A program made the translations under genes and the position numbers. The notes beneath the pieces are model-generated. The model was not told where the DNA came from. It ran no database searches and saw only the letters and a list, made by a program, of their open reading frames with translations. Positions 4,491 through 31,297 of a stretch of DNA of 59,532 nt are shown here, piece by piece. The first letter of the stretch is position 1, and each line of letters starts with the position of its first letter. Location: positions 181,756 through 241,287 of the forward strand of contig NZ_LQBL01000028.1 in NCBI RefSeq assembly GCF_001483745.1, read 5' to 3'. The stretch is from Serinicoccus chungangensis. Its GTDB lineage: Bacteria; Actinomycetota; Actinomycetes; Actinomycetales; Dermatophilaceae.

Positions 4491-7400
4491 GTGCCCCAGC
4501 TGCGGTTCGGCGTGCTCGGCACGCTGGAGGTGCTCGTCGACGGCCGACCGGTCCACGTCCCCGCCGGACGTCGTCGGGCGGTGCTGACCTGCCTGCTCGT
4601 GCACGCGGACACCCCGGTCTCCACGGACGCCCTGGTCGAGGCGGCGTGGGGCGACGAGCCACCGGCCGACCCACGCGGCGCGCTGCAGACCGTGGTCTCC
4701 CGCCTGCGGGTGCTCCTCGGACCGGACGCGGTGCAGACCGTGGAGCACGGCTACCGCCTACCGGCTCCCCCGGCGCAGGTGGACGCCCTCGAGCTGGAGG
4801 ACCTTCTCGCCCGGGCTCGGGCCGCCGAGCCTGCCAGCGCGTCGGTTCTCCTGGAGCAGGCCCGGGCGCTGTGGCGAGGGCCGCCCTTCGGTGCGCTCAC
4901 CGACCGGGAGCCGGTGGTGGCCGCAGCCGCACGACTGGAGGGTATGCGGCACGACGCCACCGAGCTGCAGGCCGCGGCCCTGCTCGACCTGGGTGAGGAG
5001 GCCGCCGCGGTGCCGCTCCTGGGCGAGCTGCTGGCCGAGGAGCCCTACCGCGAGCGCGCCGTCGGCGTGCTGGCGCGGGCCCTCTACCGTCTGGGACGGC
5101 AGACCGAGGCGCTCGACCTGCTCGACCGGCACCGCCGCCGCATGGCCGACGAGCTGGCGCTCGACCCGTCCCCGGAGCTGGTCGACCTGCAGGCACGGGT
5201 GCTGGGGCACGAGCTGGAGGCCCCCGTCGCATCCCCGGCCGGGCGACCCCGCCGACGGGACGACCCCGACCTCTCGGACACCGCCGAGCCGGTCGACGGC
5301 CCAGCGGTGGCAGGACGAGCACCGGGGCCCGCACCAGGGCCAGCGCCCAGGCCCTCGCCGCCGGACTGGCTCCGGGGAGCGGCCCCCCTGGTGGGGCGGG
5401 AGGACGACCTCGCCCGCGTCCTGGAGGCGGTGCGGGCTGGTCCGCTCACGACGGTGACGGGCCCGGGCGGTGTCGGCAAGACCAGACTCGCCGGGGAGGC
5501 TGTTCGCCTCATCGCGCGCCAGTCGGCGCTGCCGGTCGTGGTGACCGAGCTCGCCGGCGCCGGGCCCGGCGAGGTCGCGACCACCCTCGCCGGCGCGCTG
5601 CGGCTGGGGCGCCGGATCGCGGACCCGGCCGAGGCGGTCGTCGACCTGCTGACGATCGCTCCGCACGTGCTGGTCGTCGACGACGCGGAGCACCTCCTCG
5701 GGGAGGTCGCCGAGCTGCTCGCCCAGGTGGCGCGGCGGTGCAGCGGCACGCACGTGCTCGTCACCAGCCGCCAACGCCTCGGTCTGGGCTCTGAGGTGGT
5801 GCTGCCGCTCGAACCGCTGGCGGTGCCCGGCCCGGACGACGGCGACGGGCTGGGCACCTCGGCGGCGGTCCGCCTCTTCACCGACCGGGTGCGGCGGCTG
5901 AGCCCCGGGTTCGGCGTCACCGCGGACAACGCGGTGGCGGTGGGCGAGCTCTGCCGCCGTCTCGACGGGCTGCCGTTGGCGCTGGAGCTGGCAGCCGCGC
6001 GCACGGTGACGCTGGGGCTGGAGGAGGTCCTGGCCCTCCTGCCGACACCCGACCGCGCCGATGACGGGCACCTCACTCCGGGGGACAGCCTGGCACCCGG
6101 CCGGGCCGGCACTGGGCGCGTGACTCCGCAGGACGGCCCGCCACCCCCGGCTCCCGACGGGCTCGGGCTCGACCGGACGGTCGACTGGTCCTGCCGGCTC
6201 CTCGACGCCGAGCAGCAGGTCCTGCTGGCGCGGCTGTCCGTCTTCGCCGGTGACTTCGACGTCGAGGCGGTCCGGGCGCTCTACGCCGGTCTCGAGGTCG
6301 CCCCGGACCCGGGCGCGGCCCTGGCCGGACTCGTGGAGGCCTCGCTCGTCTCAGCGCGGGTGGAGGGTCCGCGCGCGCGGCACCGCTTGCTGGGCGTGGT
6401 GCGGGAGTATGCCGCTCGTCGGCTGCGCGGACGCGGGACCGAGGAGGTCGCGGTGCAGCGGGCGCATGCGACCTGGGCAGCCACCGAGTGCGAGCAGGTG
6501 GCCGAGGTGTGGGCCACTCAGGACGGGGCGCTCCTCGCCGGCCGGCTCGAGGAGCTGGTGCCGGACGTGGTGGCGGCGCTGCGCCGCACGGTGGCCAGCA
6601 CAAGGACCGCCCGCTCCGCCCCGGTCCTGCTCGTCGCGCTGCGGACCGCCGGCGCGGTGGGACGGTGCCTGCACTGGGTGCCCCCGCCGGACCTCGGCGA
6701 CCTCCACCTGGCGGTCGCCGAGCTGGCGGTCTCCCGGCTGGGGCCCCGCGACCTCGCGGTCGGTGACGCACCGGTCGTCGCGAACGGTGTGGGGGCGGGC
6801 GCGATGGTCGCGGTCGAGCGGGGCGAGCTCGACCGGGCGCGCCGACTGGCGCTGGCCGGGCACCAGCTCGTCGGCGGGACCGACGAAGCCATGGTCTGTC
6901 TGGTGCTGGGCGTGGAGGCGATGTACCGCGGGGACGCCGCCACCTGCACCGAGTGGTTCACCCGCCTCGGCCGCCTCCCCGGACTCGCCGGTGAGAGCCA
7001 CACCTCCCGGGCGCTGATGGCGCTGTATGCCGGTGACCTGGCGGCAGCGCAAGACCACCTCGCCGTGGCGCGCGCAGCCGCGGGCTCCGGCGCGGACGCC
7101 TCGCGGGCGTTCGCGCTGTATGCCGAGGGGGAGGTCATGGGAGTCACCGACACCCAGGCGGCGACCGACCGCTTCCGGGAGGCGGCGGCCTTGGCCGCCC
7201 AGATCAGCGCGGCCCAGGTGAGCAAGGTGGCGCGGCTGGCGCTCTTCGCCCGGCTGGTGCGCGACGGTCACCGCGGGGAGGCACGCACGCTGGGCGGGGC
7301 GTTGCTCCGTGACCTGCAGCGCACCGGGTCCTGGGCCCAGATCTGGACCATGCTCCGGGTGCTGGCCGAGCTGCTCCTCGAGGAGGGCGAGGCCTCGGGC

Positions 7401-7598
7401 GCCGCCTTCCTGCTCGGTGCGGCCGAGCAGGATCCCTCTGCTCCTCCCCTGATGGGTGAGGACATCGCTCGGCATGCCGCGATCCGGCAGCGTCTGGTCG
7501 ACGAGGTGGGAGCGGGCGTGCTGGAGCAGATCGCCGCGATGGCGTCCGCGACACCGCGGCCCCACGTCCTGCGCCGCGCCCTCACGCTGCTGACCTGA
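4491..7598 (+). CDS. AfsR/SARP-type transcriptional regulator (BTAD + NB-ARC ATPase + TPR-like tail)
   Basis: 1035 aa from GTG 4491, chosen because family members start just before the RFGVLGTLEV strand. Order: OmpR-type DNA-binding winged helix (about 1-90, GRRRAVLTCLLVHAD ... HGYRL); BTAD helical repeat domain (about 95-240, DALELEDLLARARA ... DELALDPSPELVDLQ); Pro-rich linker; STAND/NB-ARC ATPase with Walker A GPGGVGKTRLA (K330), Walker B LVVDDAEHLL, sensor VTSRQRLGL and LPLALELAAAR; then TPR-like helices to the C-terminus. Length and order match AfsR-type STAND activators, which use ATP-driven switching to activate nearby genes. No biosynthetic cluster is seen here; the divergent methyltransferase is the closest candidate target. 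Confidence 0.88.
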   Translation: MPQLRFGVLGTLEVLVDGRPVHVPAGRRRAVLTCLLVHADTPVSTDALVEAAWGDEPPADPRGALQTVVSRLRVLLGPDAVQTVEHGYRLPAPPAQVDALELEDLLARARAAEPASASVLLEQARALWRGPPFGALTDREPVVAAAARLEGMRHDATELQAAALLDLGEEAAAVPLLGELLAEEPYRERAVGVLARALYRLGRQTEALDLLDRHRRRMADELALDPSPELVDLQARVLGHELEAPVASPAGRPRRRDDPDLSDTAEPVDGPAVAGRAPGPAPGPAPRPSPPDWLRGAAPLVGREDDLARVLEAVRAGPLTTVTGPGGVGKTRLAGEAVRLIARQSALPVVVTELAGAGPGEVATTLAGALRLGRRIADPAEAVVDLLTIAPHVLVVDDAEHLLGEVAELLAQVARRCSGTHVLVTSRQRLGLGSEVVLPLEPLAVPGPDDGDGLGTSAAVRLFTDRVRRLSPGFGVTADNAVAVGELCRRLDGLPLALELAAARTVTLGLEEVLALLPTPDRADDGHLTPGDSLAPGRAGTGRVTPQDGPPPPAPDGLGLDRTVDWSCRLLDAEQQVLLARLSVFAGDFDVEAVRALYAGLEVAPDPGAALAGLVEASLVSARVEGPRARHRLLGVVREYAARRLRGRGTEEVAVQRAHATWAATECEQVAEVWATQDGALLAGRLEELVPDVVAALRRTVASTRTARSAPVLLVALRTAGAVGRCLHWVPPPDLGDLHLAVAELAVSRLGPRDLAVGDAPVVANGVGAGAMVAVERGELDRARRLALAGHQLVGGTDEAMVCLVLGVEAMYRGDAATCTEWFTRLGRLPGLAGESHTSRALMALYAGDLAAAQDHLAVARAAAGSGADASRAFALYAEGEVMGVTDTQAATDRFREAAALAAQISAAQVSKVARLALFARLVRDGHRGEARTLGGALLRDLQRTGSWAQIWTMLRVLAELLLEEGEASGAAFLLGAAEQDPSAPPLMGEDIARHAAIRQRLVDEVGAGVLEQIAAMASATPRPHVLRRALTLLT

Positions 7599-7655
7599 GA
7601 GCGGCCGGAGCTGCCTCCCGCTGATCACCCCGGCCCCCGGCCGAGGAGCCATCGA

Positions 7656-7749
7656 CTCACCCCGAGGGAACGCGACGCGGGGGCCTCAGCTCACCCCGAG
7701 GGAACGCGACGAGTGGGGCCTCGCCTCACACCGAGGCGAGCGCGACGAG
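7656..7749. repeat. Three tandem copies of a ~34-bp unit spanning the response-regulator stop codon
   Basis: CTCACCCCGAGGGAACGCGA begins at 7656 and at 7690; a diverged third copy starts at 7725 (CTCACACCGAGGCGAGCGCG) and encodes the last residues and stop of the response regulator. The period is 34-35 bp. The first two copies lie in the convergent space after the AfsR-type gene. They look like an out-of-gene duplication of the 3' end of the coding sequence. Confidence 0.75.
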
Positions 7750-8445
7750 GACGGCGACCTGGATGCGGTTGCCCACCCCCAGCTTGGTCTGGATCGAGGA
7801 CAGCTGGGTCTTCACCGTGCTCTCGCTGACGTAGAGGCGCTGGGCCAGCTCGACGTTCGACAGGCCCTGCGAGACGAGGGTCGCCACGTCCCGCTCGCGG
7901 TCCGTCAGCCGGGCCAGCGCCTGGCGGGCCTCCACGCACTCCGGGGCCGAGGAGACGGTGTGCAGGTGCTGCATGAACTGCCGCGCCGTGCGCTTGGACA
8001 CCGCTCCCTCCTCCGCGGCGACGGCGAGCACATGGGCGACCAGGTCGTCCGGCGACTCCGTCTTGAGCAGGAAGCCGCTGGCCCCGGCAGCCGCCGCCCG
8101 GAACGGCTCGTCGTCGCTGTCGAAGGTCGTCAGCACGATGACCTCCGGCGGTCGCGCCAGCGCCCGGACCCGCGCCGTCGCGGTCAACCCGTCGAGACGC
8201 TGCATCCGCACGTCCATGAGCACCACGTCGGGCCGGTGGCGCTCGACCGCCGGGACCGCCTCGTCGCCGTCCGCGACCGAGCTGACCACCTCGATCCGCC
8301 CCTGGCTGCCGCGCTGCAGGATCATCCGCAGCCCTGAGCAGACCATCGGGTCGTCGTCCACGAGAAGCACCCGCACCGGCCGATCCACCACCGGCCGCTG
8401 CCCCGCCGGCCCCTCTCGCTCTTCCCACCCCTCCGGCGTGCTCAT
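7726..8445 (-). CDS. NarL/LuxR-family response regulator
   Basis: 239 aa. N-terminal receiver domain with acidic pocket D30-D32 (LLVDDDPMV), phosphoacceptor D78 (VVLMDVRM), Thr in VIVLTTFDSDDE and Lys in GFLLKTE. C-terminal LuxR-type HTH about 172-235 with LTDRERDVATLVSQGLSN and STVKTQLSSIQTKLG. The first 20 residues are an extra charged extension. Its ATG overlaps the kinase stop as ATGA, so the two are translationally coupled and form one two-component system. The stimulus is unknown; the divergent DUF4352 protein may be a target. Confidence 0.93.
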   Translation of the reverse strand: MSTPEGWEEREGPAGQRPVVDRPVRVLLVDDDPMVCSGLRMILQRGSQGRIEVVSSVADGDEAVPAVERHRPDVVLMDVRMQRLDGLTATARVRALARPPEVIVLTTFDSDDEPFRAAAAGASGFLLKTESPDDLVAHVLAVAAEEGAVSKRTARQFMQHLHTVSSAPECVEARQALARLTDRERDVATLVSQGLSNVELAQRLYVSESTVKTQLSSIQTKLGVGNRIQVAVLVALASV

Positions 8446-9728
8446 GCCGCGTCCCCCGACCAGGGCAAGGTCACGGCGACGCGGAAGCGCCCGCCGTCGG
8501 TGCTCACCTCGCTCGTGCCGCCGAGGATCTCGACGCGCTCGTCGATGCCGCGGAGTCCGGACCCCGCACCCTCGACACCCGCCGGGACGGGCACTCGGAC
8601 GGAGGTCGGGTTCGACGACTCGATGCGGATGCCCTCGCCCGGGCCTCCCGACACCTGCAGCCGGACCAGCTCGCTCGGCGCGTGCTTGCGGGCGTTGGTG
8701 AGCAGCTCCTGGACGATGCGGTAGACCGAGTGAGCCAGGACGGGGTCCGCCTGGTCCGCGGAGTGGAGGAAGACCGTCGACGCCACCGGCACCCCGGCGT
8801 CGGCCATGTCGTCGATGACCGAGGACAGCTGGGAGAGCGATCGCACCGACACCGGCGACAGCGGTGCATCGCTCGCACCGGCCGCCGGGTCGCGGAGCAC
8901 CCCGACGAGGGAGCGCAGGTCGTCCATGGCGCGCTGGGCGTTGTCGCGGACGGCGCGGGCGCTCTCCCGCAGCTCAGGGTCGTCACCCGCCGCGACCTCG
9001 ATGCCGCCAGCGTGCAGCACGAGCAGCGACAGCCGATGACCGATGACGTCGTGGACCTCCCGGGCGATGAGCTCGCGCTCCCCCTGGCGGGACAGCTCGG
9101 CGGACAGCGCCCCGGCGGTGGCCCGCTCGACCGCGACCTCGTGCCGCGTGTCGTCGATCTCGTGCCGGGCCCGCAGCCAGAAGCCGACGACGACGGGGAC
9201 CACGATGACGACGAGGTAGACGACGCTCGCGGCATACACGTTGAAGTCGACCGGGTCGGTCTGGACGGTCTCGGTCGAGGAGAAGAAGCGGACCAGCGAC
9301 GAGGCCGGCGTGGGCCCGAGCGCGTCGCGCACGAACCACACCGTCCCGCCCAGCACGTGCAGGAAAGCGAGCGTCTCGGCCTCGTTGCGCTTCTCCCGCA
9401 CCAGCACCTGCGGCAGGACGAGCGCCATGACCGGGCCGATGGGGAAGATGAGCTGCAGGAAGCCCAGGCCCCACGCCGTGTTCGCGAGGTCTTTGCGGCG
9501 CAGGAGGAGCAGGAACGGCGCGCCGAGCGCGACCAGCGTGGACAGCCCCTGCACCGCGTCAGCGGCACCTCCCACCGGCCCGGTCCACGCCCAGACCCGG
9601 TTGCGCTCCTCCGCCGAGCTGACCGAGAGCACGGTGATCATCAGGGCGGCGAACACCATTGCCGCCGTGCGCGCCCAGTACCTCACGCCGCGGTCCCTGG
9701 GTGCCCGCCCCCTCGTCCTGTCCTCCAT
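8442..9728 (-). CDS. NarL-partner sensor histidine kinase (HisKA_3 type)
   Basis: 428 aa from ATG 9728; the frame stays open far upstream but only as an antisense shadow of the next gene. The N-terminus has about five hydrophobic segments (about 22-36, 56-77, 88-110, 120-135, 165-185), so the sensor is buried in the membrane with little outside loop. A short coiled segment precedes the HisKA_3 motif REVHDVIGHRLS with phosphoacceptor H226. The ATPase domain shows VQELLTNARKHAP (N box) and GSGLRGIDERVEILGG (G box). It phosphorylates the coupled response regulator. The Shine-Dalgarno is weak. Confidence 0.92.
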   Translation of the reverse strand: MEDRTRGRAPRDRGVRYWARTAAMVFAALMITVLSVSSAEERNRVWAWTGPVGGAADAVQGLSTLVALGAPFLLLLRRKDLANTAWGLGFLQLIFPIGPVMALVLPQVLVREKRNEAETLAFLHVLGGTVWFVRDALGPTPASSLVRFFSSTETVQTDPVDFNVYAASVVYLVVIVVPVVVGFWLRARHEIDDTRHEVAVERATAGALSAELSRQGERELIAREVHDVIGHRLSLLVLHAGGIEVAAGDDPELRESARAVRDNAQRAMDDLRSLVGVLRDPAAGASDAPLSPVSVRSLSQLSSVIDDMADAGVPVASTVFLHSADQADPVLAHSVYRIVQELLTNARKHAPSELVRLQVSGGPGEGIRIESSNPTSVRVPVPAGVEGAGSGLRGIDERVEILGGTSEVSTDGGRFRVAVTLPWSGDAA

Positions 9729-15853: not shown

Positions 15854-16384
15854 CTAGCGCAAGTCCTCCGGACGTCGAGGCATCCTGAGACGCCGATCGT
15901 GGTCCACCATGTCCTGCATCAGATCCCAGCCCTGCTGGGGGCTGAGGTCACCGTCCTGGATCACGGCCATCACAACGTCAATGGTCTCCCGCACGACCAG
16001 ACCTTGCTGTCGGGCGAAGATCAGGGCATCCACGTCGTCGCTTACCCACCAAGAGTCGCGCCATTCCGATTTCTCCTTAAGGAGAAAGCAAGTCTGGGCT
16101 TCGCCCAGGTGCTTGAGCGGGTCGGTCGAAGCTCCGCCGAAGACATCCCGGCGAATGATCTCGACTCGAGCGCTGTCCCGCTCATCGCTGATCTCGATGG
16201 CTTCACCCATCCATGCCGCCACGTCCGCCAAATCAGGCAATTGTTGGGAAGATCGCTGCGCCTCCGCCGCGATCGCTTCAACCCATCGCCCGCGCCCCCG
16301 AAAAAAGCCTTCAAGAAGTGCAAGGCGATGAACTGCGGCAAAGTTGCAGAGCACGGTATTGTCGGGGAACAGCGCACTGACCAC
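15854..16384 (-). CDS. PIN-like protein partnered with the XRE-ImmA protein
   Basis: 176 aa, GTG start one base after the stop of the upstream gene, so co-translated. N-terminus ALFPDNTVLCNFAAVHR resembles the first PIN strand and helix (D8-N9-T10), and the later segment VSDDVDALIFARQQGL resembles the third acidic strand. Overall similarity to classic VapC is weak. Its position directly after an XRE-ImmA regulator fits a toxin- or effector-like role, but it could be a nuclease helper of unknown target. GC here (about 55% in the line I counted) is below the surroundings. Confidence 0.6.
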   Translation of the reverse strand: MVSALFPDNTVLCNFAAVHRLALLEGFFRGRGRWVEAIAAEAQRSSQQLPDLADVAAWMGEAIEISDERDSARVEIIRRDVFGGASTDPLKHLGEAQTCFLLKEKSEWRDSWWVSDDVDALIFARQQGLVVRETIDVVMAVIQDGDLSPQQGWDLMQDMVDHDRRLRMPRRPEDLR

Positions 16385-16385
16385 T

Positions 16386-17483
16386 TCAGGTCTCCTCCGA
16401 GCCAGCCTGCTCCAAGATTACCCTCATCTCCTCCGGGTTTACGCCGAGCAGTTCAGCATACAACCGGACAGTGGTTTTCCCATCCAGATAGGCTTGCATA
16501 AGGTCGCGCGCAAGGAGCCCCGGTGGTCGCGGTGCCGAGCTACCTTGCACCGCTGTGGACAGGGCGGAGACTTCGTCGCACTCCTTGGCTGCGCCTAGGG
16601 CGGAAACCTGTCCCCACTGCCTGGCGGCCATCTCGTCGATCAACCGAAGATTTTGGAGGCGGAAGCCCAGTGCGCGTGGGGTTACCTGCAGACGAGTCGA
16701 GAGGAGGAGGAAGTCTGAGCGGGCGAATCCCGGTTTCACCGCGTCAAGGAGCACGCCCTGTGGCATGAGCAGGGCGGCCGCGAAGGCGTTGGCCCGGATC
16801 TCCGAGGGTTCCCGCTTGGTCCTCGCGCCATAGACGTCCTCGTCGAGGTGCAGTTCCTGGCTGTCCTCGACTAGGAGATGGGCGAGCTCGTGAGCAATCG
16901 TGAACCGCTGCCGATAGGCGTTCGGCGTGACGGACACGAGGATCATCCTGGCGTCCCGCGTCGCAACCGCCAGGCCGTCGAACCCATCGCCTAGGTCCGT
17001 TCGGCATACGTCGAAGCCAAACACCTCTTCGATGACCCCGGGAAGATCGTGCAAAGCCCCCATGCTTCGATCGCAACCGAAGTGTCTCTGCACCTGTTTG
17101 GCGAGCTCTTCACCCTGCTCGTAAGCCCTACCCGAGCACACTGTGAACTCGGGGAAGTTCCACCCTTGCGGATAGCCCAGCCGCGTAGCTGAGGTACGGA
17201 CATCAGCCATGCGCCGCGCCGTGGTCGACGCGATGCCGGTGCTGCTACCCGCGTGTGCCCGAGCTGCCAGCGCGAGCGTGGACTCGTTGCCGGTCAGCAG
17301 CCAGTCAACCGTGACGTTGGCGTGCTCTGCGATCCGAGCGAGATCGAGCGATGAGAATCGTCGAGCTCCGCCAAGTGACTTGGACAGTTTTGAGGGGTCT
17401 AGACCGACAGCCTGAGCGAAGTCCGCCTGGCTTGTACCGAGATCCGCGATCAGGTCGCGGACCCGTTGTGTCGTGTCGCTCAT
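16386..17483 (-). CDS. XRE-family regulator fused to ImmA/IrrE metallopeptidase
   Basis: 365 aa from ATG 17483. Residues about 5-65 are an XRE helix-turn-helix (IADLGTSQADFAQAVGLDP ... RIAEHANVTVDWLLTG). Residues about 140-260 are the ImmA/IrrE zinc peptidase, with HEXXH as H198-E199-L200-A201-H202 and a downstream Glu in EIRANAFAAALLMP. In such proteins the peptidase removes a repressor or the same chain when triggered. It is divergent from drmD and a perfect inverted repeat lies between the two starts, so it is the likely regulator of itself, the PIN-like gene and DISARM. Confidence 0.88.
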   Translation of the reverse strand: MSDTTQRVRDLIADLGTSQADFAQAVGLDPSKLSKSLGGARRFSSLDLARIAEHANVTVDWLLTGNESTLALAARAHAGSSTGIASTTARRMADVRTSATRLGYPQGWNFPEFTVCSGRAYEQGEELAKQVQRHFGCDRSMGALHDLPGVIEEVFGFDVCRTDLGDGFDGLAVATRDARMILVSVTPNAYRQRFTIAHELAHLLVEDSQELHLDEDVYGARTKREPSEIRANAFAAALLMPQGVLLDAVKPGFARSDFLLLSTRLQVTPRALGFRLQNLRLIDEMAARQWGQVSALGAAKECDEVSALSTAVQGSSAPRPPGLLARDLMQAYLDGKTTVRLYAELLGVNPEEMRVILEQAGSEET

Positions 17484-17502
17484 GCACACAGCGTGGCAGG
17501 CG

Positions 17503-17532
17503 GTTGCGATTTTCGCAACAGCGTGAAAGAGT
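17503..17532 (+). promoter_or_regulatory. Inverted-repeat operator overlapping the predicted drmD promoter
   Basis: GTTGCGA-TTT-TCGCAAC (17503-17519) is a perfect 7+3+7 inverted repeat. TTGCGA in its left arm is a possible -35, 17 nt from AAGAGT (17527-17532) as a weak -10; drmD starts at 17591. The repeat is 20 nt before the XRE-ImmA ATG on the other strand. An XRE dimer is the natural candidate binder. Confidence 0.6.
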
Positions 17533-17590
17533 GGCGGCGCCACGTGGCTGACGACCACGAGCCAACCACGGCAAGCGCAGAGAGGCCGCC

Positions 17591-20500
17591 ATGACTGTCA
17601 CCCAAGATCGCACCGCGCAGACTCTGCCGGACGTCCCTGAGCCCGGTCAGGTTGTCGAGGTCCGCGGAAGCGCCTGGGCCGTGGCCGACGTCCGCGCCCA
17701 GGGGCTGCCCCGCAGCCCGGCCGACGAGACGAATGCCCGCGTCCAGCACGTCGTGGCCCTCCAGTCCCTCGACGAGGACCGCCTCGGTGACGAGCTCACC
17801 GTCGTGTGGGAGCTCGAAGTCGGTCACACGGTCATCCCGGACCAAGGCCTTCCCGAGAAGCTGCACCGGAACGACTTCGACGACCCCAACACGCTCGGGG
17901 CCTTCGTGGACGCCGTCCGGTGGGGTGCGGTGACCTCCGCCGACGCGAGCGCCTTCCAGGCACCGTTCCGCAGCGGCGCCAACGTCGAGGCCTACCAGCT
18001 GGAGCCGTTGCGTCGTGCGCTGGCCGCTCCGCGCGCCAACCTCCTGCTGGCCGACGACGTGGGACTCGGCAAGACGATCGAGGCCGGCCTCGTCATCCAG
18101 GAGCTACTGCTGCGGCACCGGGCCCAGACCGCCATTATCGTCTGCCCGCCGAGCCTTGCGTTGAAGTGGCAGGAGGAAATGCGGGAGAAGTTCGGTCTGG
18201 ACTTCGTCATCATCAACAGCGAGCTGATGGCTCAGGTCCGACGCAGCCACGGACCGGGCGCCAACCCGTTCCGTCTCTTCCCACGGGTCATCGTCAGCAT
18301 GGCCTGGCTCCCCATGCCCCGCGCGCAGCGGCTGCTGCGCGACGTGCTCGCGAACGTCGGCCGGCCCGGATCTGCCCGGCGCTATGCCTTCGACATCCTG
18401 GTCGTCGACGAGGCCCACCACGTCGCGCCCGCCAGCCCGAGCCAGCTCGGAGGCGGGAGAGGGTATGCGCTCGACAGCAAACGCACCCGCGCGACGCGCG
18501 CCCTTGCGGAGCGCTGCGAGCACCGCCTCTTCCTCAGCGCGACGCCGCACAACGGGCACACCGAGTCCTTCACAGCCCTGATGGAGATGGTGGACAACCG
18601 TCGCTTCAGTCGTGGGGCAGCCCTAGACCCGGAGGCGCTCAAGGCGGTCACCGTCCGGCGGCTCAAGACCGACATCCCCAGCAAAGACTTCAAGACCCGA
18701 CAGATCAAGCCGATCCTGTTCACCCCCACTCCCGACGAGTCGTCGGCCTTCGAGCTGCTGGACACCCTCCTGCGCGAGAGCAGCCGGGCCGAGGGCCGTC
18801 GATCGGCCGGTGACATCGTGGCGCTGCTGCTCAAGAAGCGCTTCCTCTCCAGCCCCTACGCGTTCTCCCAGACCCTCGCGCACTACGACTCCAGCGCGGC
18901 CAGTGACTCCGCGGACCTGTGGGACGACGACCCCTATGCCGAGCTGCTCGGGAGCGAGCAGACCGATGAAGAGGAGGGTCTCTGGGAGCACCCGGAGGCG
19001 TCCGCGATCCGCCAGGAGAAGCGGCACGACCCGCTCAGCGCAGCCACCACCGCGCAGATCGAGCAGCTGGTGAGCTGGGGTGCTGGATACGAGCACAAGC
19101 CCGACTCCCGGGCCGTGGCGTTGGTCCGCTTCCTCGAGGCGGTCTGCCGCCCGGGTGGCACCTGGACCAACGAGCGGGTGGTCGTTTTCACCGAGTATGC
19201 CGCGACGTTGCGGTGGCTCGAGAGCATCCTCACCCAGCGTGGGTTCGGCGACCGGCTTGCTGTCATCCAGGGCAGCACCGACCCGGAGACCCGGGAGGAC
19301 ATCCGGGCCCAGTTCACGGCCAGCCCGGCAGCACACCCGCTTCGGGTCCTCCTTGCCACCGACGCCGCCGGCGAGGGCATCGACCTTCAGACCCACTGCC
19401 ACCGGCTCGTCAACTTCGATGTGCCGTTCAACCCGTCCCGGCTGGAGCAACGTATCGGACGGATCGACCGCTACGGTCAGGAGTACCCGCCGGAGATCTA
19501 CTACCTGACTCCCACCGACGCGGACACCCGACTGGCTGCGGACCTGTCGTTCATGCGGCGGATCGCAGAGAAGGTCTCCAGGATCGACGCCGATCTCGGG
19601 TCCATCAACCCGATCATCGACGACGAGATCCAGGAGCACTTCACCGGCGCGCGGTCCGCCCGACGCAAGGCAGCCACGAACGTGGGCGTCGAGACCACCA
19701 ACCGGGCGCGCGCCGGCGAGTTGGAGCTCAACGCCTCCTTGACCGAGCTTGCCCGGACCTACGGTCAGCGCAAGCAGGCCATGCACCTCACCCCCTACAG
19801 TGCCCAGCGGGTCGTCGACACGGCACTGGCCCTCACCAACCAGCCGGGTCTGATCGAGGTGGGTGACCAGGACACCGACGCCCCAGTCTTCGCGGTACCC
19901 AATCTGGGTCCACGCTGGGGTGAGGCCACGGTCGGCCTGGACACCCGACTCAACCGTGGCATGCTGCGGCCCATCACGTTCGACGACACCGCCGCCGCCG
20001 GACGCACCGACCTGGTGCACGTCCACCTCGGCCATCCCCTGCTCCAGACGTCGGCGCGCATCCTGCGCAACAGCCTGGTCGGGGCCGACGCCCAGGTCCG
20101 GCGGGTCACCGCCGTCGTCGACGACACGCTCCCCATGTCCTGCGTGGCTGCTGTCTCTCGACTGGTCCTGGTCGGTCGTGGCGGCCTGCGGCTCCACGAG
20201 GAGGTCTTCCTCTCCGGCATCCGGTTGCGCGGGAACGACATGGCGGAAGAACGGGTAAACGACCTCCTGGAGCGCGTGCTCGACTCGCCGGACCTATCCC
20301 TGGCCCCGGGCAGAGTCCGTGAAGCCGTCGCCGATCAATGGTCGGCCGAGGGATCCCGGATGCGGTCGCGGCTGGAGCAGGCCATGCAGACCCGCGCCGA
20401 GCGTCGACAGCAGGCCGTGGCGGACGCCCTGGCCCAGCGCCAGACCGACGACGTCGACCGGGCTCGGCAGATCTATACCGCCTTCCGGACAAACCTCACC

Positions 20501-20752
20501 GAGAGCATCCGGACCCTTCGGTCCGAACAGGAGGAGCAGGACGCGATGCTGCTGCCCGACGACCAGCAGCAGCAGCGCACTCGAGACATCGTGGCGATGG
20601 AGACCCGCCTGGCCACCCTGGATGAAGAGGAAGGCCGCGAGATCGCGGCGATTCGCGAGCGGTATGCCGAGGTGCGGGCGCACGTCACAGCGGCAGCCGT
20701 GATTTTCGCCCTGACCCCTGCGGACGCCGCAGCTCTGGGAGGAGGACAGTGA
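17591..20752 (+). CDS. drmD: DISARM class 1 helicase DrmD (Snf2-like SF2)
   Basis: 1053 aa, ATG with GAGAGG upstream. Snf2-type SF2 motor: Walker A ADDVGLGKTIEAG (K161), DEAHH (D273), LFLSATPHNGH, then the second RecA fold with VVFTEYAATLRWLES, ATDAAGEGIDLQ and motif VI RIGRIDRYGQ. The last ~130 residues are charged coiled helix (QTDDVDRARQIY ... DEEEGREIAAIRERY). First gene of a five-gene run (drmD-drmMI-drmA-drmB-drmC) in the order of class 1 DISARM, a restriction-modification-like anti-phage system. DrmD is the class 1 hallmark; its precise job is not established. Confidence 0.92.
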   Translation: MTVTQDRTAQTLPDVPEPGQVVEVRGSAWAVADVRAQGLPRSPADETNARVQHVVALQSLDEDRLGDELTVVWELEVGHTVIPDQGLPEKLHRNDFDDPNTLGAFVDAVRWGAVTSADASAFQAPFRSGANVEAYQLEPLRRALAAPRANLLLADDVGLGKTIEAGLVIQELLLRHRAQTAIIVCPPSLALKWQEEMREKFGLDFVIINSELMAQVRRSHGPGANPFRLFPRVIVSMAWLPMPRAQRLLRDVLANVGRPGSARRYAFDILVVDEAHHVAPASPSQLGGGRGYALDSKRTRATRALAERCEHRLFLSATPHNGHTESFTALMEMVDNRRFSRGAALDPEALKAVTVRRLKTDIPSKDFKTRQIKPILFTPTPDESSAFELLDTLLRESSRAEGRRSAGDIVALLLKKRFLSSPYAFSQTLAHYDSSAASDSADLWDDDPYAELLGSEQTDEEEGLWEHPEASAIRQEKRHDPLSAATTAQIEQLVSWGAGYEHKPDSRAVALVRFLEAVCRPGGTWTNERVVVFTEYAATLRWLESILTQRGFGDRLAVIQGSTDPETREDIRAQFTASPAAHPLRVLLATDAAGEGIDLQTHCHRLVNFDVPFNPSRLEQRIGRIDRYGQEYPPEIYYLTPTDADTRLAADLSFMRRIAEKVSRIDADLGSINPIIDDEIQEHFTGARSARRKAATNVGVETTNRARAGELELNASLTELARTYGQRKQAMHLTPYSAQRVVDTALALTNQPGLIEVGDQDTDAPVFAVPNLGPRWGEATVGLDTRLNRGMLRPITFDDTAAAGRTDLVHVHLGHPLLQTSARILRNSLVGADAQVRRVTAVVDDTLPMSCVAAVSRLVLVGRGGLRLHEEVFLSGIRLRGNDMAEERVNDLLERVLDSPDLSLAPGRVREAVADQWSAEGSRMRSRLEQAMQTRAERRQQAVADALAQRQTDDVDRARQIYTAFRTNLTESIRTLRSEQEEQDAMLLPDDQQQQRTRDIVAMETRLATLDEEEGREIAAIRERYAEVRAHVTAAAVIFALTPADAAALGGGQ

Positions 20753-23700
20753 TGGCGATACAACGCCGCAGCACGCCGACAGGCCGCGACTTGCACACCG
20801 CGTGGCTGGAGCTCATCGACACCGAGGGTCCCTTCCTCGCCCTCCCACCACTGCTACAGGTCTGGCCCCAGGGCATGCCGCGCCTCAACGACGGCGTCCG
20901 AGTCACACTGTCCGACCGCAAGCGCCGGTTCGACCGCGCCTGGGACACCTGGGACGCGCAGCGGACCGAGGCAGCCACCGAGGCCTACCGGACGGAGCGG
21001 GATGCGTGGGTGGACGTCATCCTGAGCGAGGTCCTCGGATGGGGCGAGATGTGGTCACGGGGCGACGCTGCTACGAGCAACGCCCTCATCCACTCCCCCG
21101 ACCACTCGGTCAGCCTCCAACCCACCGGCGTGATGCGGCACGAGGACCAGGTCGCTGTCCTCGTCTGGGTGATCGATCCCGTCTCGGACCTGCGGGCGGT
21201 CTCCGAGGACGACTGGGCGACCAGCCCGGTCGACCGGATGGAGCTGATGCTCAAGGCAAGTGGCATACCGATCGGGGTCGTCACCGACGGACGCTGGTGG
21301 GGTCTGGTCAGTGACGCACCTGACACGCTCGCCGCGTCAGGGATCTTCGACGCGCAGACGTGGATCGAGGAGCCCACCGCGCGCGACGCACTCGTCGCAC
21401 TGCTCGCCCCAGTCCGGCTCGTCGGTGGCGAGGCAGAGAACCGGCTGACGGCCCTGTTCGCTAGCTCCGTGCTGGCTGCCGAAGAGATCACCGAGGCCCT
21501 GGGCGTCCAGGTCCGGCAGGCGGTCGAGCTGGTCGTGCAGGCCTTCTCCGAGTCCGCCGAGGCTGCCCGGCAACGTGGGGAAGACTCCTCCCTGCCCGTC
21601 CGCGACGGCCAGGTGGACGGCGACCAGGTCTACGAGGCCGTCGTCACCACGATGATGCGAGTCGTCTTTCTACTCTTTGCCGAAGAGCGTGGGCTGCTGC
21701 CCCAGGGCGAGCTGTTCGAGAAGGGCTATGGCCTCACGGGTCAGCTCGACCGACTGGAGCAGCGCGCCCGCCACCAGGGCGACGACGCCCTGGACCGGTC
21801 GTTCGGCACCTGGCACCGGCTGCTTGCCACGTCTCAGGCACTGCACCAGGGCGCGACGTTCGAAGACCTCCGCCTGCCGGCCTACGGTGGATCTCTCTTT
21901 GACCCGGCACGCTTCCCGTTCCTGACCGCGGTCACCTCCCGGGGCTCACTTGCGCTGCCGGTCAGCGACCGGGTCATGCTTCAGGTGCTGCGCGCGCTCC
22001 AGTTTGCGACCGTCAACCGGCAGGAGCGACGCCTGTCCTTCCGGGACATTGACGTCGAGCAGATCGGCTACATCTACGAGGGGCTGCTCGGCTACACCTG
22101 CGTGGTCGCCGACGAGGTGGTGCTCGGGCTGATCGGCAAGCAGGGCAGCGAGCCTGAGATCACCCTGGAGTCCCTCAACAACCTGTATGACGAGCATGGC
22201 ACCGATGCGCGCACCGCTGACGCAGTGATTGCACAGGTCAAGGAGGACCAGCCGGGCAGCGTCCCCCCGACAAAGGCTGCCTTGACGAGGGCGTTCGCCG
22301 CGAGCGACGGTCTCGAGGACGCCGAGCGGGCGCTTCGCGCGGTCACGAGCGACGAGGACCTCCGCGAGGAGCTGCGACCGTGGCTCGGAGCGATTCGGCG
22401 AGACCTGCGGGGCTGGCCGGTGGTCGTGCTGCCCGGCGGCCTGCTGGTGCGGGAGACGCCGTCGCGCCGCAACGCCGGCGCGCACTACACCCCCCGCGAG
22501 CTGGCGGAGGAGATCGTCCAGCACGCTCTGGAGCCGCTCGTCTACTCTCCTGGCCCGCACCAGGGCAACGACCCTGAGCGGTGGGTGCCGCTCGGTTCGA
22601 CCGACCTGCTCGGACTGAGGGTCGCCGACATCGCGTGCGGGTCTGGGGCCTTCCTGGTGGCAGCGGGCCGATACCTGGCCGCCCGGCTCGTCGAAGCGTG
22701 GCGCCGCGAAGGTGTGGCCGAGGGCTACTCCCCCGCGGAGCTGGAGACGCGTGCCGTGCGCGAGGTGGTCGCGAACTGCCTCTACGGCGCCGACATCAAC
22801 GCGATGGCGGTCGAGATGTGCAAGCTGTCGCTCTGGCTCGTCTCGCTCGACCCCAAGCTGCCGTTCTCGTTCGTCGACGACAAGGTCCTGCACGGCAACT
22901 CCCTGCTGGGCGTCACCGACCTGCGCCAGCTTGAGGACCTGCACGTCCGGCCCCGGCGCGGCCCGCAGCAGAGCGCCCTCGAGCTGGTCGGAGACAGGCT
23001 TGTCGACCGCCTCGACCTCGACCACCGGATCGAGCAGGCGGTCCGCCTGCGGCGGCAGCTGTCCGACCAGATCGTGGAGCACGACCCGCAGCGCTCCGGG
23101 CAGGCCAAGCGCGCCCAGCTGCGGCGGCTGCACGAGGTCACCGCCGACCTGCGGCTCATCGCCGACGCTGTGATCGCCGCCGGGCTGCGGGTCGGCGGCA
23201 AACCTGGTCGAGCGCTGGACGAGGCGTACGAGAACCTCCGCGCCGCCGTCGCCCGCGCGTTCCCCGCCTCCGGAACGGGCGACCGCACGGCACTTAAGGC
23301 GATGGCGGACGTCGGGCTGACTCCGGAAGTCGAGACGGACTACGCGCGCTGGCAGCCGTTGCACTGGGCCCTCGAGGTGCCGGACGTGATGCGCCGCGGC
23401 GGTTTCGACGCCATCGTGGGCAATCCCCCGTTCCTCGGCGGCAAGAAGCTGTCACCGGCCATGGGACAGAACCTCCGCGAGTGGTTCGTCAACCAACTCG
23501 CAGGCGGCACGAAGGGTAACGCCGACTTAGTCGCGTACTTCTTCCTCCGCGCCCAGTGCCTCCTGACCCCGCGCGGCACGATGGGCCTCATCGCTACCAA
23601 CACGATCGCCCAGGGCGACACTCGCGAGGTCGGCTTGGACCGGATGGTCAACGACGGAATGACCATCACGCGAGCGATCCAGAGCCGGCCGTGGCCGGCC

Positions 23701-24837
23701 AAGTCCGCCAACCTTGAGTATGCGGCCGTGTGGGCCACCAATGGACCGGTGGCGGACGGCGTGCCGCGGGTCTCCGACGACGTGCCGGTCCGGCGGATCT
23801 CGACGTTGCTGGAACCGTCCGGTCGGGTGACCGGAAACCCGCTACGCCTCGCGGAGAACTTGGGTATTGCGTTCCAGGGATGCATTGTCCTCGGCAAGGG
23901 GTTCGTGATTGATCCGCCCCTGGCGCTCGCGTGGCTCGACGACGATCCCCGGAACGCCGAGGTGCTGTTTCCCTACCTCAATGGCGACGATCTGAACTCT
24001 CGCCCCGACGGCTCGGCCTCGCGTTGGGTCATAGACTTCGGTGAGCGCACCGAGGAGGAAGCGCGCCAGTTCGAAAAGCCATGGAATCACGTCACCCGGT
24101 ACGTCAGACCGGAGCGACTAAAGCAGAACGCCAAGAAGTACCCCCGCATGGTCAACGAGTGGTGGAAGTTCTGGAACGCCCGCCCTGGAATGCGGCGGAC
24201 GATCGCTGGTCTGAGTTCAGTCATCGCATTGCCGCGAGTGAGCAGCACCCAGATGCCGTCCAAAGTTTCCACTGAAATGGTGTTCAGTGAGCAGGTCGTT
24301 GTCTTCGCGACAGCGAGCGACGCGTTTCTCTCAGTTCAGTCGTGTTCGATGCATCAATTATGGACCGTTCAGAACACATCCACGATGGGAGCCGGGATTC
24401 GCTACGCCCCTTCGGATGCCTTCGAGACCTTCCCTCGCCCAGCGGACAAGGATGTCCTGCGCCAGATCGGACGAACCCTGGATGAAGAGCGACGAGAGGT
24501 GATGCTCCGCCGCGATCTGGGGTTAACGAAGCTCTACAACCTGGTCAACGACCCCGACATAAGTGTGGCAGCAGACGCCGACGTAGCACGGCTGCGGGAG
24601 ATCCACGTGGAGCTCGACCATGCGGTCATGCACGCCTACGGCTGGGGCGACGTGACGCTCGCCCACGGCTTCCACACCTATCGCCAGATGACCCGCTGGA
24701 CGGTCAGCCCCGCGGCGCGGGTCGAGATCCTCGACCGGCTGCTGGAGGAGAACCACCGGCGCGCCGCTCTCCAGGGCGACGTAAAACCCGCCCTGTACGA
24801 GGACGAGAAGGATGAGGTGGGCTCGGATGCCGGCTGA
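20752..24837 (+). CDS. drmMI: DISARM class 1 adenine-specific DNA methyltransferase DrmMI
   Basis: 1361 aa from ATG 20752, overlapping the drmD stop by one base, with GGAGGAGG 6 nt upstream (GTG 20749 is an alternative). Large type IIG-like N6-adenine methylase: N-terminal region without visible nuclease motif, SAM motif IACGSGAFLVAAGRYL (about 628-643), catalytic NPPF at 891-894 (IVGNPPFLGGKK), then a target-recognition region to the C-terminus. It marks host DNA so that the DISARM effector spares it. GC dips to about 52% in two counted lines at 24241-24360 within the recognition part, against about 73% at motif I. Confidence 0.93.
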   Translation: MAIQRRSTPTGRDLHTAWLELIDTEGPFLALPPLLQVWPQGMPRLNDGVRVTLSDRKRRFDRAWDTWDAQRTEAATEAYRTERDAWVDVILSEVLGWGEMWSRGDAATSNALIHSPDHSVSLQPTGVMRHEDQVAVLVWVIDPVSDLRAVSEDDWATSPVDRMELMLKASGIPIGVVTDGRWWGLVSDAPDTLAASGIFDAQTWIEEPTARDALVALLAPVRLVGGEAENRLTALFASSVLAAEEITEALGVQVRQAVELVVQAFSESAEAARQRGEDSSLPVRDGQVDGDQVYEAVVTTMMRVVFLLFAEERGLLPQGELFEKGYGLTGQLDRLEQRARHQGDDALDRSFGTWHRLLATSQALHQGATFEDLRLPAYGGSLFDPARFPFLTAVTSRGSLALPVSDRVMLQVLRALQFATVNRQERRLSFRDIDVEQIGYIYEGLLGYTCVVADEVVLGLIGKQGSEPEITLESLNNLYDEHGTDARTADAVIAQVKEDQPGSVPPTKAALTRAFAASDGLEDAERALRAVTSDEDLREELRPWLGAIRRDLRGWPVVVLPGGLLVRETPSRRNAGAHYTPRELAEEIVQHALEPLVYSPGPHQGNDPERWVPLGSTDLLGLRVADIACGSGAFLVAAGRYLAARLVEAWRREGVAEGYSPAELETRAVREVVANCLYGADINAMAVEMCKLSLWLVSLDPKLPFSFVDDKVLHGNSLLGVTDLRQLEDLHVRPRRGPQQSALELVGDRLVDRLDLDHRIEQAVRLRRQLSDQIVEHDPQRSGQAKRAQLRRLHEVTADLRLIADAVIAAGLRVGGKPGRALDEAYENLRAAVARAFPASGTGDRTALKAMADVGLTPEVETDYARWQPLHWALEVPDVMRRGGFDAIVGNPPFLGGKKLSPAMGQNLREWFVNQLAGGTKGNADLVAYFFLRAQCLLTPRGTMGLIATNTIAQGDTREVGLDRMVNDGMTITRAIQSRPWPAKSANLEYAAVWATNGPVADGVPRVSDDVPVRRISTLLEPSGRVTGNPLRLAENLGIAFQGCIVLGKGFVIDPPLALAWLDDDPRNAEVLFPYLNGDDLNSRPDGSASRWVIDFGERTEEEARQFEKPWNHVTRYVRPERLKQNAKKYPRMVNEWWKFWNARPGMRRTIAGLSSVIALPRVSSTQMPSKVSTEMVFSEQVVVFATASDAFLSVQSCSMHQLWTVQNTSTMGAGIRYAPSDAFETFPRPADKDVLRQIGRTLDEERREVMLRRDLGLTKLYNLVNDPDISVAADADVARLREIHVELDHAVMHAYGWGDVTLAHGFHTYRQMTRWTVSPAARVEILDRLLEENHRRAALQGDVKPALYEDEKDEVGSDAG

Positions 24838-27800
24838 CTCCACCGCCTACGAACTGCGCCACGAGCCCGACGGGACCTCCTGGGTGGCGCGGGAGAACCT
24901 GGCCGACGTGCTGCGGCGCGAGCTGCTCGGACCGGCCGACGGTGACGACGAGGTGATCGAGGCGCCGCCGGACAGCCGCTACCTCGTGGGGCGGATCGCG
25001 CCGGTCCGCCTGAGCGACTCACCGGACAGCCCAGCCGTGGCCGATGTCGACGACGACTCACTGCTCGACGTCGGTGACGACCTCGCGGCCGCCGAGTCAC
25101 GCGGCGTCCCGGCTCTCGACGTGGACGACACCGCGACCGCTGCCGACGAGGACTCTGCCGAGGACCAGGCACTCAGACGGGGGCTGATGATCCCGGCCTC
25201 GATGGGACTACGGTTCCAGGTGCCGCTCGACCTCCCGACCGTGACGGTGAGGGCGTCGTGGGGGACCTACGACCCCAAGCCCACGGGTGAGGTCACCGCA
25301 ACCGGGCGGTCGATCCGCAAGTTCGCCCGGACGCAGCACGACATACCGACAGTGCTCGACCTTGCCCGTCTCCGCGACGGGGTCACCGAGGAGGTGCCGC
25401 TCAAGGACGATGTCACGTTGCGGGTGGACTCTTACACCGACCCCAAGCGGCACTGCCGCCTGGTGGAGCTGGCCCTGTGCAACGACCGTGAGACTCCACG
25501 GCAGATCCCCGTCAACGCGTGGCTCTTCCAGACCGGGCTGGTCGTCGAGGGGGGCGGGGCCGAGGTCTTCCTCCCCGTGCGCGACGTGGTCGAGGACCCT
25601 GACTCCCTCGGTCGCGACCCGGAGCAGCGACTCCTGGACCTGCAGTATCGCGACCGCCTCGAGTTCGCGATCGGCAGGACCTGCTCCGCGACCTGGCTGG
25701 TGGCCGAAGGCTCCCGCCGGGCGACCCGCGTGTCCACCACGTGGCTGCCGGAGGCCGAGACCCCGCAGACCCTGGCCGCCGACCCTGACGGCGTCGTCTT
25801 GGACATGGTCGCCCTCTCCCGCGCCACGCCGCCAGAGATCGACGCCGGCCTGCGACCCATCGTGGCTGGGTACGCCGAGTGGCTCGCCGGTCGTCGCGAC
25901 CGGATCGGAGCCCTGCCCGCGCACCTTCGCCAGGACGCGACCGACGCCGTCGAGATGGCCGAGTACGTGCAGCGCCAGCTCGCGGATGGCCTCGACTTCC
26001 TGCTCGGGGACGACGAGGCGCTCCGGTGCTTCGCCTTCATGAACCGGGTGATGGCCGACCAGCGCATCCACACCCAGATCGCCGAGCTGCGCGCCGAGCA
26101 GCCTCACCTCTCCCGCTCGGCAGCACGTCAGAAGGTGTTGGACCGCGGACCCGGCGCGCACTCCTGGCGCACCTTCCAGATCGCCTTCGTCCTCATGCAG
26201 ATCCGGGCCCTGTGCGAGCCCGAGACCTCCGTCCGCAGCGGCGACCTCGCCCAGGTCGAGCTCCTGTTCTTCCCGACCGGTGGTGGGAAGACGGAGGCCT
26301 ACCTCGGGCTTGCCGCGTTCGCGTTCGCCATCCGTCGGCGCCAGGGGGTGGTCGGCTCGCCGGATGGCCCGCTGGACGGGCGGTCCGGCGTCACGGTGCT
26401 GATGCGCTACACGCTGCGGTTGCTGACCGCCCAGCAGTTCCAGCGGGCGACGACGCTCGTGTGCGCGGCCGAGATGGCTCGCCGCGAGGACGAGGACACA
26501 TGGGGCACCGAGCCGTTCCGGATCGGGCTGTGGGTCGGTAGCGGCGTCTCGCCGAAACGGGTCGACGACGCTGCCAAGGAGCTGAAGCGGGTCAACGAGG
26601 GGACGGCCTACAAGCTGACGGCCCTGCAGATCCAGCGGTGCCCGTGGTGCGGCTCGGCCATCACGGCCGCCCAGGTGCGCGTGGACGAGACGACCCGACG
26701 GGTGCACGTCTACTGCTCGGACCCGCTCGCCCAGTGCCCGTTCGCGGAGGGCGGCACCGTCGAGGGTGGGGTCCCCGTCCTGACCGTCGACGAGGAGATC
26801 TACCGCCTCGCGCCGGCCTTCGTCATCGCGACGGTCGACAAGTTCGCCCGCCTGGCGCGTGAGGGCGAGGCGGCCTCGCTCTTCGGTTACGTCTCCCGGC
26901 GCTGTGCCAGGCACGGCTTCGTGCACCCCGACTACCAGGCGTGCGAGATCAAGGACGGCGGCAAGCATCCGGCAAAGGCCGGACACCCGGCAGCGCCCGT
27001 GTCCCCCCACGTCCGGCTGCGCCCCCCGGACCTGATCATCCAGGACGAGCTCCACCTGATCACCGGCGCGCTCGGCACCACGGTGGGGCTCTTCGAGGTG
27101 GCGATCGACGCGCTCACCCGGTGGCGGGACGCGCACGGTCGACCGTGCCGGCCGCTCGTGGTCGCGTCCAGCGCCACCGTCCGGAACGCCGCCGACCAGG
27201 TGCGCAACCTTTACGGCAGGGCGACCTCCATCTTTCCGCCCCAGGTGCTGGACGCGGGTGACACCTTTTTCTCCGCAGAGGTGCCCGTGTCCGCCGAGAC
27301 GCCGGGACGTCGCTACATCGGCGTGAGCACCACCGGCGTCCGCATGACCAACGCAGAGATCCGGCTCGCCGAAGTCATGATGGCCGGAGCGCAGTTGATG
27401 CTCGACCGCTGTGGCTCGGCCGCCGATCCGTACATGACTCTCGTCGGGTACTTCAGCTCCACGCGCGAGCTGGCCGGTATGACGCGTTACCTCGGTGATG
27501 ACGTCCGCACCGCGCTCGCGAAGGGCCGACCGGGCAGCGGGCTCCCACGGCGGTTCGGGACGGCCTACGGGGACCTCAACGCCACGGAGCTGACGGCTCG
27601 GGTCTCTGGCGCGGACATCACGACCACGCTGAACCAGATGGCGGTGCGCTTCGACCCCGACTTCGACAGCACCCAGGCCCTCATGCAACGCCGTGACGCC
27701 CGCCAGCGGGGCGAGAAGGTCGCCAACCGTCCGGTAGACCCCTACGACACGGTCCTGGCGACGTCGATGCTCCAGGTGGGTGTCGACGTCACCCGGCTGG

Positions 27801-30573: not shown

Positions 30574-31297
30574 GCCGACCGCGGTCCGGGAGCTGGGTGA
30601 GCTGATCACCGGGGCCGAGGCAGAGTCCCTCGCTGCGCGCCTCGGCGGAGGCCAGCCACTGGCCATGGCTCTCGCCCAGCTGGACAACCAACGGTCGCAC
30701 AGGATCCGGATGCTGCTGGAGAGAGCTGCGCTGCTCGACGACCGCGCGACGCTCGTCCAGGTCCTTCAGGGGATCGCCGGAGCCAGAGCAGGTCCCACCA
30801 GCATCACCCCCGTCTGGACGACCCCTGCACATCTTGCGCAGCACGGGCAGCTCACGGCTTCGATCCATCACTACATCGAGCACGCCCGGGAGTCCGTCGT
30901 CTGCTCGACCTTCAATTTCCAGCGCAGCTCGGCACTGTGGTCAGCGTTGACCGCAGCAGCCGAGCGGCCCGAGGTCGCCGTACGGGTCTACGTGGACGCC
31001 GCCGCAGCGGACGAGAACCCGGCTCCGTGGAAGCCCACGACCCAGGAAGTGGCACAACAGCTCCGAGCGGCGCGAGTCTTCCGGACCAGGCAGTTCCACG
31101 GGAGCCCGGTCCGCAACCACGCCAAGTTCGTCGCCATCGACCACCAGTTCCTGGTCGTCACCAGCGCCAATTTCTCCAAGAGCGCCGAGCAGGTGAACGT
31201 TGAACTCGGGCTCGTCGTCGCCGATCAGCGCCTGGCTCAGGGAGTCGAGAGACAGATGATCGACCTGGAGGCTCACATCTTCGAGCGCATCGAGTGA
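30563..31297 (+). CDS. drmC: DISARM phospholipase-D-like protein DrmC
   Basis: 244 aa from ATG 30563, overlapping drmB by 11 nt. N-terminal helical part, then a PLD domain with one HKD motif, RNHAKFVAIDHQFLVVTSAN, and downstream EQVNVELGLVV. A single HKD implies dimerisation to form an active site. DrmC is usually dispensable for DISARM and its substrate is unknown. Last gene of the operon; convergent with the next gene 28 nt away. Confidence 0.92.
   Translation: MSGEPTAVRELGELITGAEAESLAARLGGGQPLAMALAQLDNQRSHRIRMLLERAALLDDRATLVQVLQGIAGARAGPTSITPVWTTPAHLAQHGQLTASIHHYIEHARESVVCSTFNFQRSSALWSALTAAAERPEVAVRVYVDAAAADENPAPWKPTTQEVAQQLRAARVFRTRQFHGSPVRNHAKFVAIDHQFLVVTSANFSKSAEQVNVELGLVVADQRLAQGVERQMIDLEAHIFERIE

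Follow-up and report, generated by a model that had tools for sequence, protein, structure and literature searches.

A putative XRE-ImmA/PIN toxin-antitoxin pair predicted to share one operator with a divergent class 1 DISARM operon

A minus-strand gene pair encoding an XRE-ImmA protein and a PIN-like protein was found divergent from class 1 DISARM in a 59,532-nucleotide stretch of Serinicoccus chungangensis DNA, which is called the window below. By sequence comparison and by analogy with characterised systems, we favour, with modest confidence, the reading of the pair as a VapBC52-type toxin-antitoxin module that is coupled to DISARM, its antitoxin repressing both its own operon and the drmD operon and a single cut releasing both. 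Besides controlling a toxin, the antitoxin would probably hold DISARM off via one shared DNA site. Neither immune-operon controllers that sense single-stranded DNA (ssDNA) nor XRE-ImmA/PIN pairs are new in themselves; what appears to be new is that the two meet at one operator shared with DISARM. The original prediction had stated that no DISARM regulator of this build was described. In agreement, a literature search limited to openly licensed papers yielded no paper on an XRE-ImmA/PIN pair at DISARM, although ssDNA-responsive controllers of immune operons including DISARM, namely CapW/BrxR and CapH+CapP, are described in the accessible part of PMC13373217.

Coordinates of the features are collected in Table 1. 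The layout given by the original prediction, two minus-strand genes one base apart and divergent from a class 1 drmD, was confirmed, and the DISARM set was complete (drmD-MI-A-B-C), the NCBIfam cut-offs being passed for DrmD, DrmA and DrmB. Compared with class 1 DISARM, all five drm genes are present here and the extra element is the divergent toxin-antitoxin pair, which shares the drmD promoter region.

Table 1. Positions of the gene pair, the predicted regulatory elements and the DISARM genes in the window
Feature	Position	Strand	Description
PIN-fold protein gene	15854-16384	minus	176 aa, GTG start at 16384, end at 15854; putative VapC52-like toxin
XRE-ImmA gene	16386-17483	minus	365 aa, ATG start, TGA stop
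XRE-ImmA protein			XRE-HTH, ImmA/IrrE (M78) peptidase and C-terminal domain; putative antitoxin and repressor
Inferred XRE-PIN promoter	17490-17518	minus	-35 TTGCGA inside operator, 17-bp spacer, -10 CACGCT, ATG six bases on
Predicted operator	17503-17519	unstranded	perfect inverted repeat GTTGCGA-TTT-TCGCAAC; conserved core 17504-17518
Inferred drmD promoter	17504-17532	plus	-35 TTGCGA (17504-17509) inside operator, 17-bp spacer, -10 AAGAGT (17527-17532)
drmD	17591-20752	plus	SNF2-like helicase; NF038317 1228.8 bits, PADLOC DrmD
drmMI	20749-24837	plus	class 1 DISARM methyltransferase; PADLOC DrmMI 1627 bits
drmA	24812-28552	plus	helicase; NF038325 1314 bits
drmB	28549-30573	plus	NF038324 654 bits
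drmC	30563-31297	plus	PLD nuclease; PADLOC DrmC 8.6e-95, PLDc_2

In Pfam, the XRE-ImmA protein matched Peptidase_M78 (1.1e-17), with HTH families just below or near their cut-offs. The predicted HEXXH motif with E199 was present in the translation as H198-E199-L-A-H202, followed by a further glutamate (E228) and preceded by the linker A73-A74-R75. The AlphaFold2 model was graded good (pLDDT 88.3, pTM 0.80) and contained a short strand at linker residues 71-74. Over 85 aligned rows, HEXXH was conserved in 85/85, E228 in 84/85, A73 in 85/85, A74 in 81/85 and R75 in 84/85. A profile built from 46 relatives matched IrrE (1.3e-15), CapP 7t5t (2.8e-12) and, in the peptidase region only, VapB52 9vzy (1.9e-11). 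The best PADLOC match was CapP (1.7e-20); CapH also matched (3.1e-6), as did several RmrA models (up to 1.8e-18, the best at 64.7 bits over residues 5-299, with no cut-off stated in the PADLOC output). No relative of the single XRE-ImmA protein was present among 156 pattern matches in a scan of genome contigs, and profile-profile comparison of the XRE-ImmA and PIN proteins of the pair gave no match.

The 176-aa partner had no match in Pfam, NCBIfam or PADLOC, and a search for the PIN family in Pfam at E 10 returned only scattered weak matches to unrelated families. By sequence, PIN proteins of the pairs matched no PDB chain, and the window protein matched no phage record. Its AlphaFold2 model (pLDDT 96.5, pTM 0.90) was compared using Foldseek and matched PDB PIN proteins (prob 0.99-1.00; best E 7.4e-3, none reaching E 0.001). 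Four of the first nine PDB rows, including the best, were titled VapC or VapBC and five were titled hypothetical proteins. The acidic residues D8, E41, E95, D116 and D117 were retained in 80, 84, 84, 83 and 84 of 85 rows, respectively. Model and residues together indicate a PIN fold with acidic active-site residues; the original prediction had called the protein PIN-like.

VapBC52 of M. tuberculosis (Rv2515c/Rv2514c) has the same gene order, the same succession of XRE-HTH, ImmA/IrrE and C-terminal antitoxin parts, and a PIN partner; likeness to the window pair is limited by a 9vzy match confined to the peptidase region and by PIN proteins lacking a PDB sequence match. According to the accessible part of PMC13273310 (NAR 2026), VapB52, an XRE-ImmA antitoxin, removes its own N-terminal domain by cleavage following addition of ssDNA, self-cleavage requires the HEXXH histidines, toxin binding is lost when the N-terminal domain is missing, and the PIN partner cleaves tRNA. 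The same part describes a cysteine switch (C229) and an F-R motif, and no tie to DISARM. Toxicity and rescue were reported for the VapBC52 pair in the accessible text of PMC6504116. As the window pair is built like VapBC52, an XRE-ImmA antitoxin with a PIN tRNase, it is probably not only a regulator. The window translation has no cysteine between H202 and E228, and the cysteine switch of VapB52 and CapP is therefore missing in that form; as a speculation, H212, kept in 47/85 rows, is one candidate for an alternative fourth ligand.

Two further systems were compared. RosmerTA (RmrA/RmrT) likewise combines an ImmA-type antitoxin with a toxin next door, and the accessible part of PMC10440598 describes it together with a NetFlax ImmA node linked to PIN domains. 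It differs in that the validated toxin depolarises membranes and no DISARM link was seen in that part; the 176-aa protein had no RmrT match in PADLOC. CapW/BrxR (WYL) proteins are similar as ssDNA-responsive repressors of adjacent immune operons (PMC13373217, accessible part) but belong to another protein family and act without proteolysis.

The PADLOC matches to CapP and CapH would also fit a pure transcriptional switch, that is, CapH+CapP fused in one chain, with the PIN protein as an accessory DISARM effector instead of a toxin held by an antitoxin. In the accessible part of PMC13373217, CapH+CapP comprise an HTH repressor and an ssDNA-activated ImmA-like protease that govern adjacent immune operons, and the promoter geometry of the window would be compatible with control of this kind. 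CapH and CapP are, however, encoded by separate repressor and protease genes, whereas the window has one 365-aa chain with a PIN protein beside it. Moreover, in most pair loci the XRE and PIN genes overlap or lie end to end (one base apart in the window), an arrangement that in VapBC52 is that of antitoxin and toxin. A PIN-less XRE-ImmA relative was not found next to drmD in any of 27 pairless drmD loci, a 34% match in one of them (L056) lying about 4.4 kb away. We consider a pure switch improbable and retain the toxin-antitoxin module as the working reading.

The perfect inverted repeat that had been reported to overlap the predicted drmD -35 is present letter for letter at 17503-17519, and the end of the interval given in the original prediction (17532) coincides with the end of the drmD-side AAGAGT. 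Significance of the repeat on its own was rejected, because perfect repeats of this format, with 7-bp arms separated by 3 bp, number 17 in the window. A sigma-70 consensus scan of 17300-17700 returned no promoter (0 found, 0.0 expected). What raises the repeat above chance is its conservation across loci combined with a single occurrence of the operator core (TTGCGANNNTCGCAA) in the 3.56-Mb genome to which the window belongs, from which the reversed control pattern was absent. Allowing up to 2 mismatches, TTGCGA-N3-TCGCAA was found upstream of the XRE gene in 74/86 rows, with and without DISARM, mostly 20-21 bp before the start codon (one row, L101, was not testable, and the 12 rows lacking the site were left out of the spacing counts). 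Since the site is kept whether or not DISARM is present, it is best regarded as the operator of the pair itself, and a DISARM-specific element was rejected on the same ground. In L136, L138, L148, L157-L159 and L074, another conserved sequence replaces the usual operator before the XRE gene, consisting of a TTGTG or TTGAG half followed by TACTGT just ahead of a GTG start.

Spacing from the operator to the -10 boxes was scored using the pattern NANNNT. On the XRE side, a box at 17 bp was present in 11/18 divergent DISARM loci and in 43/56 others. On the drmD side, it was present at 17 bp in 16/18 divergent DISARM loci, with at most 2/18 for any other spacing from 9 to 44, and in 3 of the 56 others (L092, L129, L144). 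Non-DISARM loci had the box at 17 bp in 3/23 cases with a divergent neighbour and in 0/29 with a co-directional one. Fisher tests, in which related loci are treated as independent, gave 2e-11 for 16/18 versus 3/56 and 1.2e-6 versus 3/23. Four of the 22 divergent rows fall outside the 18: L116, which has a drmD fragment, dropped out with the rows lacking the site, as did L074 and L160, which have none within 2 mismatches, and L106, with a 1.1-kb gap, was counted among the 56 others, as were L130 and L168. The drmD -10 boxes are weak and rarely have T as first base. The comparison, which includes the repeat conservation named in the original prediction as a check, supports one predicted operator carrying the -35 boxes of both divergent promoters. 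A -10 box at 17 bp from the half-site would bring drmD under control of the repressor, irrespective of why it was selected.

Occurrence of the pair was surveyed at several levels. At E 0.001, a relative of the PIN protein was detected in 6/296 genomes of a phylum sample and in 15/248 of an order sample. In 394 genomes of the class, drmD passed the NCBIfam cut-off at 31 places, 4 of which, the window included, adjoin the pair. These represent 4/10 places where DrmD is at least 62% identical to that of the window and 0/21 of the others, leaving 6/10 window-like drmD loci and 21/21 others pairless. None of 10 upstream neighbours of pairless drmD examined with Pfam was clearly a regulator; they included mobilisation genes, a relaxase and a reverse transcriptase, and one gave a weak HTH_38 match below cut-off. 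A genome-wide PIN-alignment search of 30 genome handles (29 of the class sample and G810) detected PIN relatives in 7. In G596 the relative is on the same contig as drmD, about 1.1 Mb apart, and G546 and G521 carry weaker relatives.

Following a PIN-alignment scan of 84,980 species genomes, 107 relatives were obtained and the best 80 kept, so weak relatives are missing from the survey. Among these best 80 of 107, DISARM genes lay within 10 kb at 27 loci: 19 divergent from drmD (one, L116, with a drmD fragment only), 7 directly downstream of drmC in the order drmB-drmC-XRE-PIN, and 1 (L168) behind diverged drmA-drmB. A twenty-eighth flagged locus, L126, was rejected because its 29-32% matches are to other helicase and methyltransferase genes. 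Loci from G193 (L074) and G810 (L084), both divergent, and from G175 (L087) were added from other searches; L080, L081, L082, L086 and L171 duplicated L099, L112, L102, L162 and L170 and were omitted. In L087, the pair (7044-8723) interrupts the DISARM operon: it lies between drmA and drmMI and is encoded on the other strand. In L107, the pair is also flanked on its opposite side by a further drmD-like gene of 1085 aa.

Within the 450 bp preceding drmD, no full site was detected in 6 window-like loci without the pair, in 21 loci of the other DrmD subfamily or in 6 downstream-layout loci (L200-L205). In 6/7 downstream-layout loci, the XRE gene itself also lacks the site (L130 has it) and has another conserved upstream sequence. 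Lacking a site at drmD in the downstream layout, the pair cannot be the switch of DISARM everywhere, and the proposal made for the window does not extend that far.

A quick maximum-likelihood tree of the pair was built from 85 rows obtained in these searches, among which weak relatives are missing. A branch with SH-aLRT 99 separates 36 rows, the window among them, from 49 rows, and DISARM-adjacent pairs number 29/36 on the window's side versus 2/49 on the other. The 36 comprise 22 divergent and 7 downstream pairs, 6 without DISARM and 1 undecidable at a contig end; of the 49, 47 are without DISARM and the remaining two are L087 and L168. Whether the pair lies mostly away from DISARM, the point on which the original prediction could fail, thus depends on scope: 53/85 rows are away, while 29/36 adjoin in the window's branch. 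Distances between DrmD proteins and between pairs were correlated over 20 divergent loci (Spearman 0.80; 0/2000 permutations as high). The six window-like loci that lack the pair occupy two positions in the DrmD tree. One non-DISARM locus, L092, contains a DrmC C-terminal fragment beside the pair (8302-8999, profile positions 113-240 of 241) and retains the drmD-side -10; it is probably the scar of a lost DISARM. Another of the six window-side rows without DISARM, L088, is a very long branch.

Such a distribution bears on two alternatives. The pair might be an autonomous toxin-antitoxin module beside DISARM that autoregulates and stabilises the island or adds abortive defence, drmD having borrowed an existing promoter. 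Retention of the operator in loci without DISARM, the 53/85 rows away from it, downstream-layout loci in which the pair adjoins DISARM and drmD has no site, and VapBC52, which works without DISARM (PMC13273310, accessible part), all speak for such autonomy. The drmD -10 exactly 17 bp from the half-site in 16/18 divergent loci and the common history of DrmD and the pair argue against it, and we consider it unlikely, though it deserves weight. Defence-island clustering alone could account for adjacency in a window rich in defence genes, and Wadjet is another neighbour of the pair; tight divergent spacing, fixed promoter geometry and parallel histories would, however, be unexpected from loose grouping, which makes this already disfavoured explanation very improbable. 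As regards the pair as DISARM switch, its recurrence next to DISARM and the shared -35 boxes partly support the original prediction, but the pair appears to be foremost a toxin-antitoxin module and the repeat its own operator. An XRE-ImmA protein that cleaves itself and thereby sets free a PIN toxin is on record for one relative, VapBC52 (PMC13273310, accessible part).

According to the favoured reading, the XRE-ImmA protein would bind the 15-bp palindrome that holds the -35 boxes of the two divergent promoters. Bound there in the divergent layout, it would silence both the XRE-PIN operon and drmD-drmMI-drmA-drmB-drmC, and would meanwhile keep the PIN RNase inactive. Phage infection or DNA damage would lead to a build-up of ssDNA, upon which the ImmA domain would cut its own chain in the linker after the HTH, the likely site being the conserved A-A-R (A73-A74-R75). 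In several relatives, ImmA-type peptidases cleave immediately ahead of an arginine, as at the F-R motif of VapB52. Cleavage in the linker would part the HTH from the remainder, and operator and toxin would therefore be released together: DISARM would be induced, and the freed PIN toxin may add a second, abortive layer. More tentatively, and with somewhat less than even confidence, a single ssDNA-triggered cut may open two tiers, DISARM expression and then growth arrest, and the pair may be a portable stress switch used in at least two DISARM layouts and with Wadjet.

Control of DISARM, a large multi-enzyme system, between quiet and active states has been little described. The comparison yields an exact promoter model, with two -35 boxes within one operator and a 17-bp spacing to the -10, that predicts DISARM induction and RNase release to be one event, and it joins two lines of research, on ssDNA-responsive immune-operon controllers and on XRE-ImmA toxin-antitoxin pairs. 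If the model is correct, one self-cutting protein could free a defence system and a toxin on phage attack.

Further defence genes were recorded near the pair in several loci. Wadjet II jetA2-B2-C2-D2 comes next after the pair in L086; in L166 and L170, protein clustering placed Wadjet II genes directly after the pair, for the genes on the contig. Similarly, on Streptomyces plasmid NZ_CP134205.1 (L210), annotation puts the pair directly ahead of Wadjet II. L074 has the pair flanked by DISARM on one side and by jetC3/jetD3 of Wadjet III on the other, and clustered jetC3 was also found in L148, L152 and L160. In these four Streptomyces loci, the pair is located between DISARM and Wadjet III, the L152 contig ending before DISARM; in two of them the pair and drmD are divergent, and in one the pair follows drmC. 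L149 and L164 have an SMC/AAA ATPase of roughly 800 aa in divergent orientation next to the pair, with no -10 at 17 bp, and the L149 copy has LmuB/PtuA-like matches.

In the window, three genes directly behind drmC (32145-38364) gave strong PADLOC matches to ZacA, ZacB and ZacC, representing a second defence system in tandem. Defence-like genes span 38438-59012, comprising a PDC-S29 match (38438-39160), a PbeA-like helicase (40013-41884, minus strand), a UvrD/GajB-like helicase (42554-45274) and a DpdE-like helicase (55557-59012).
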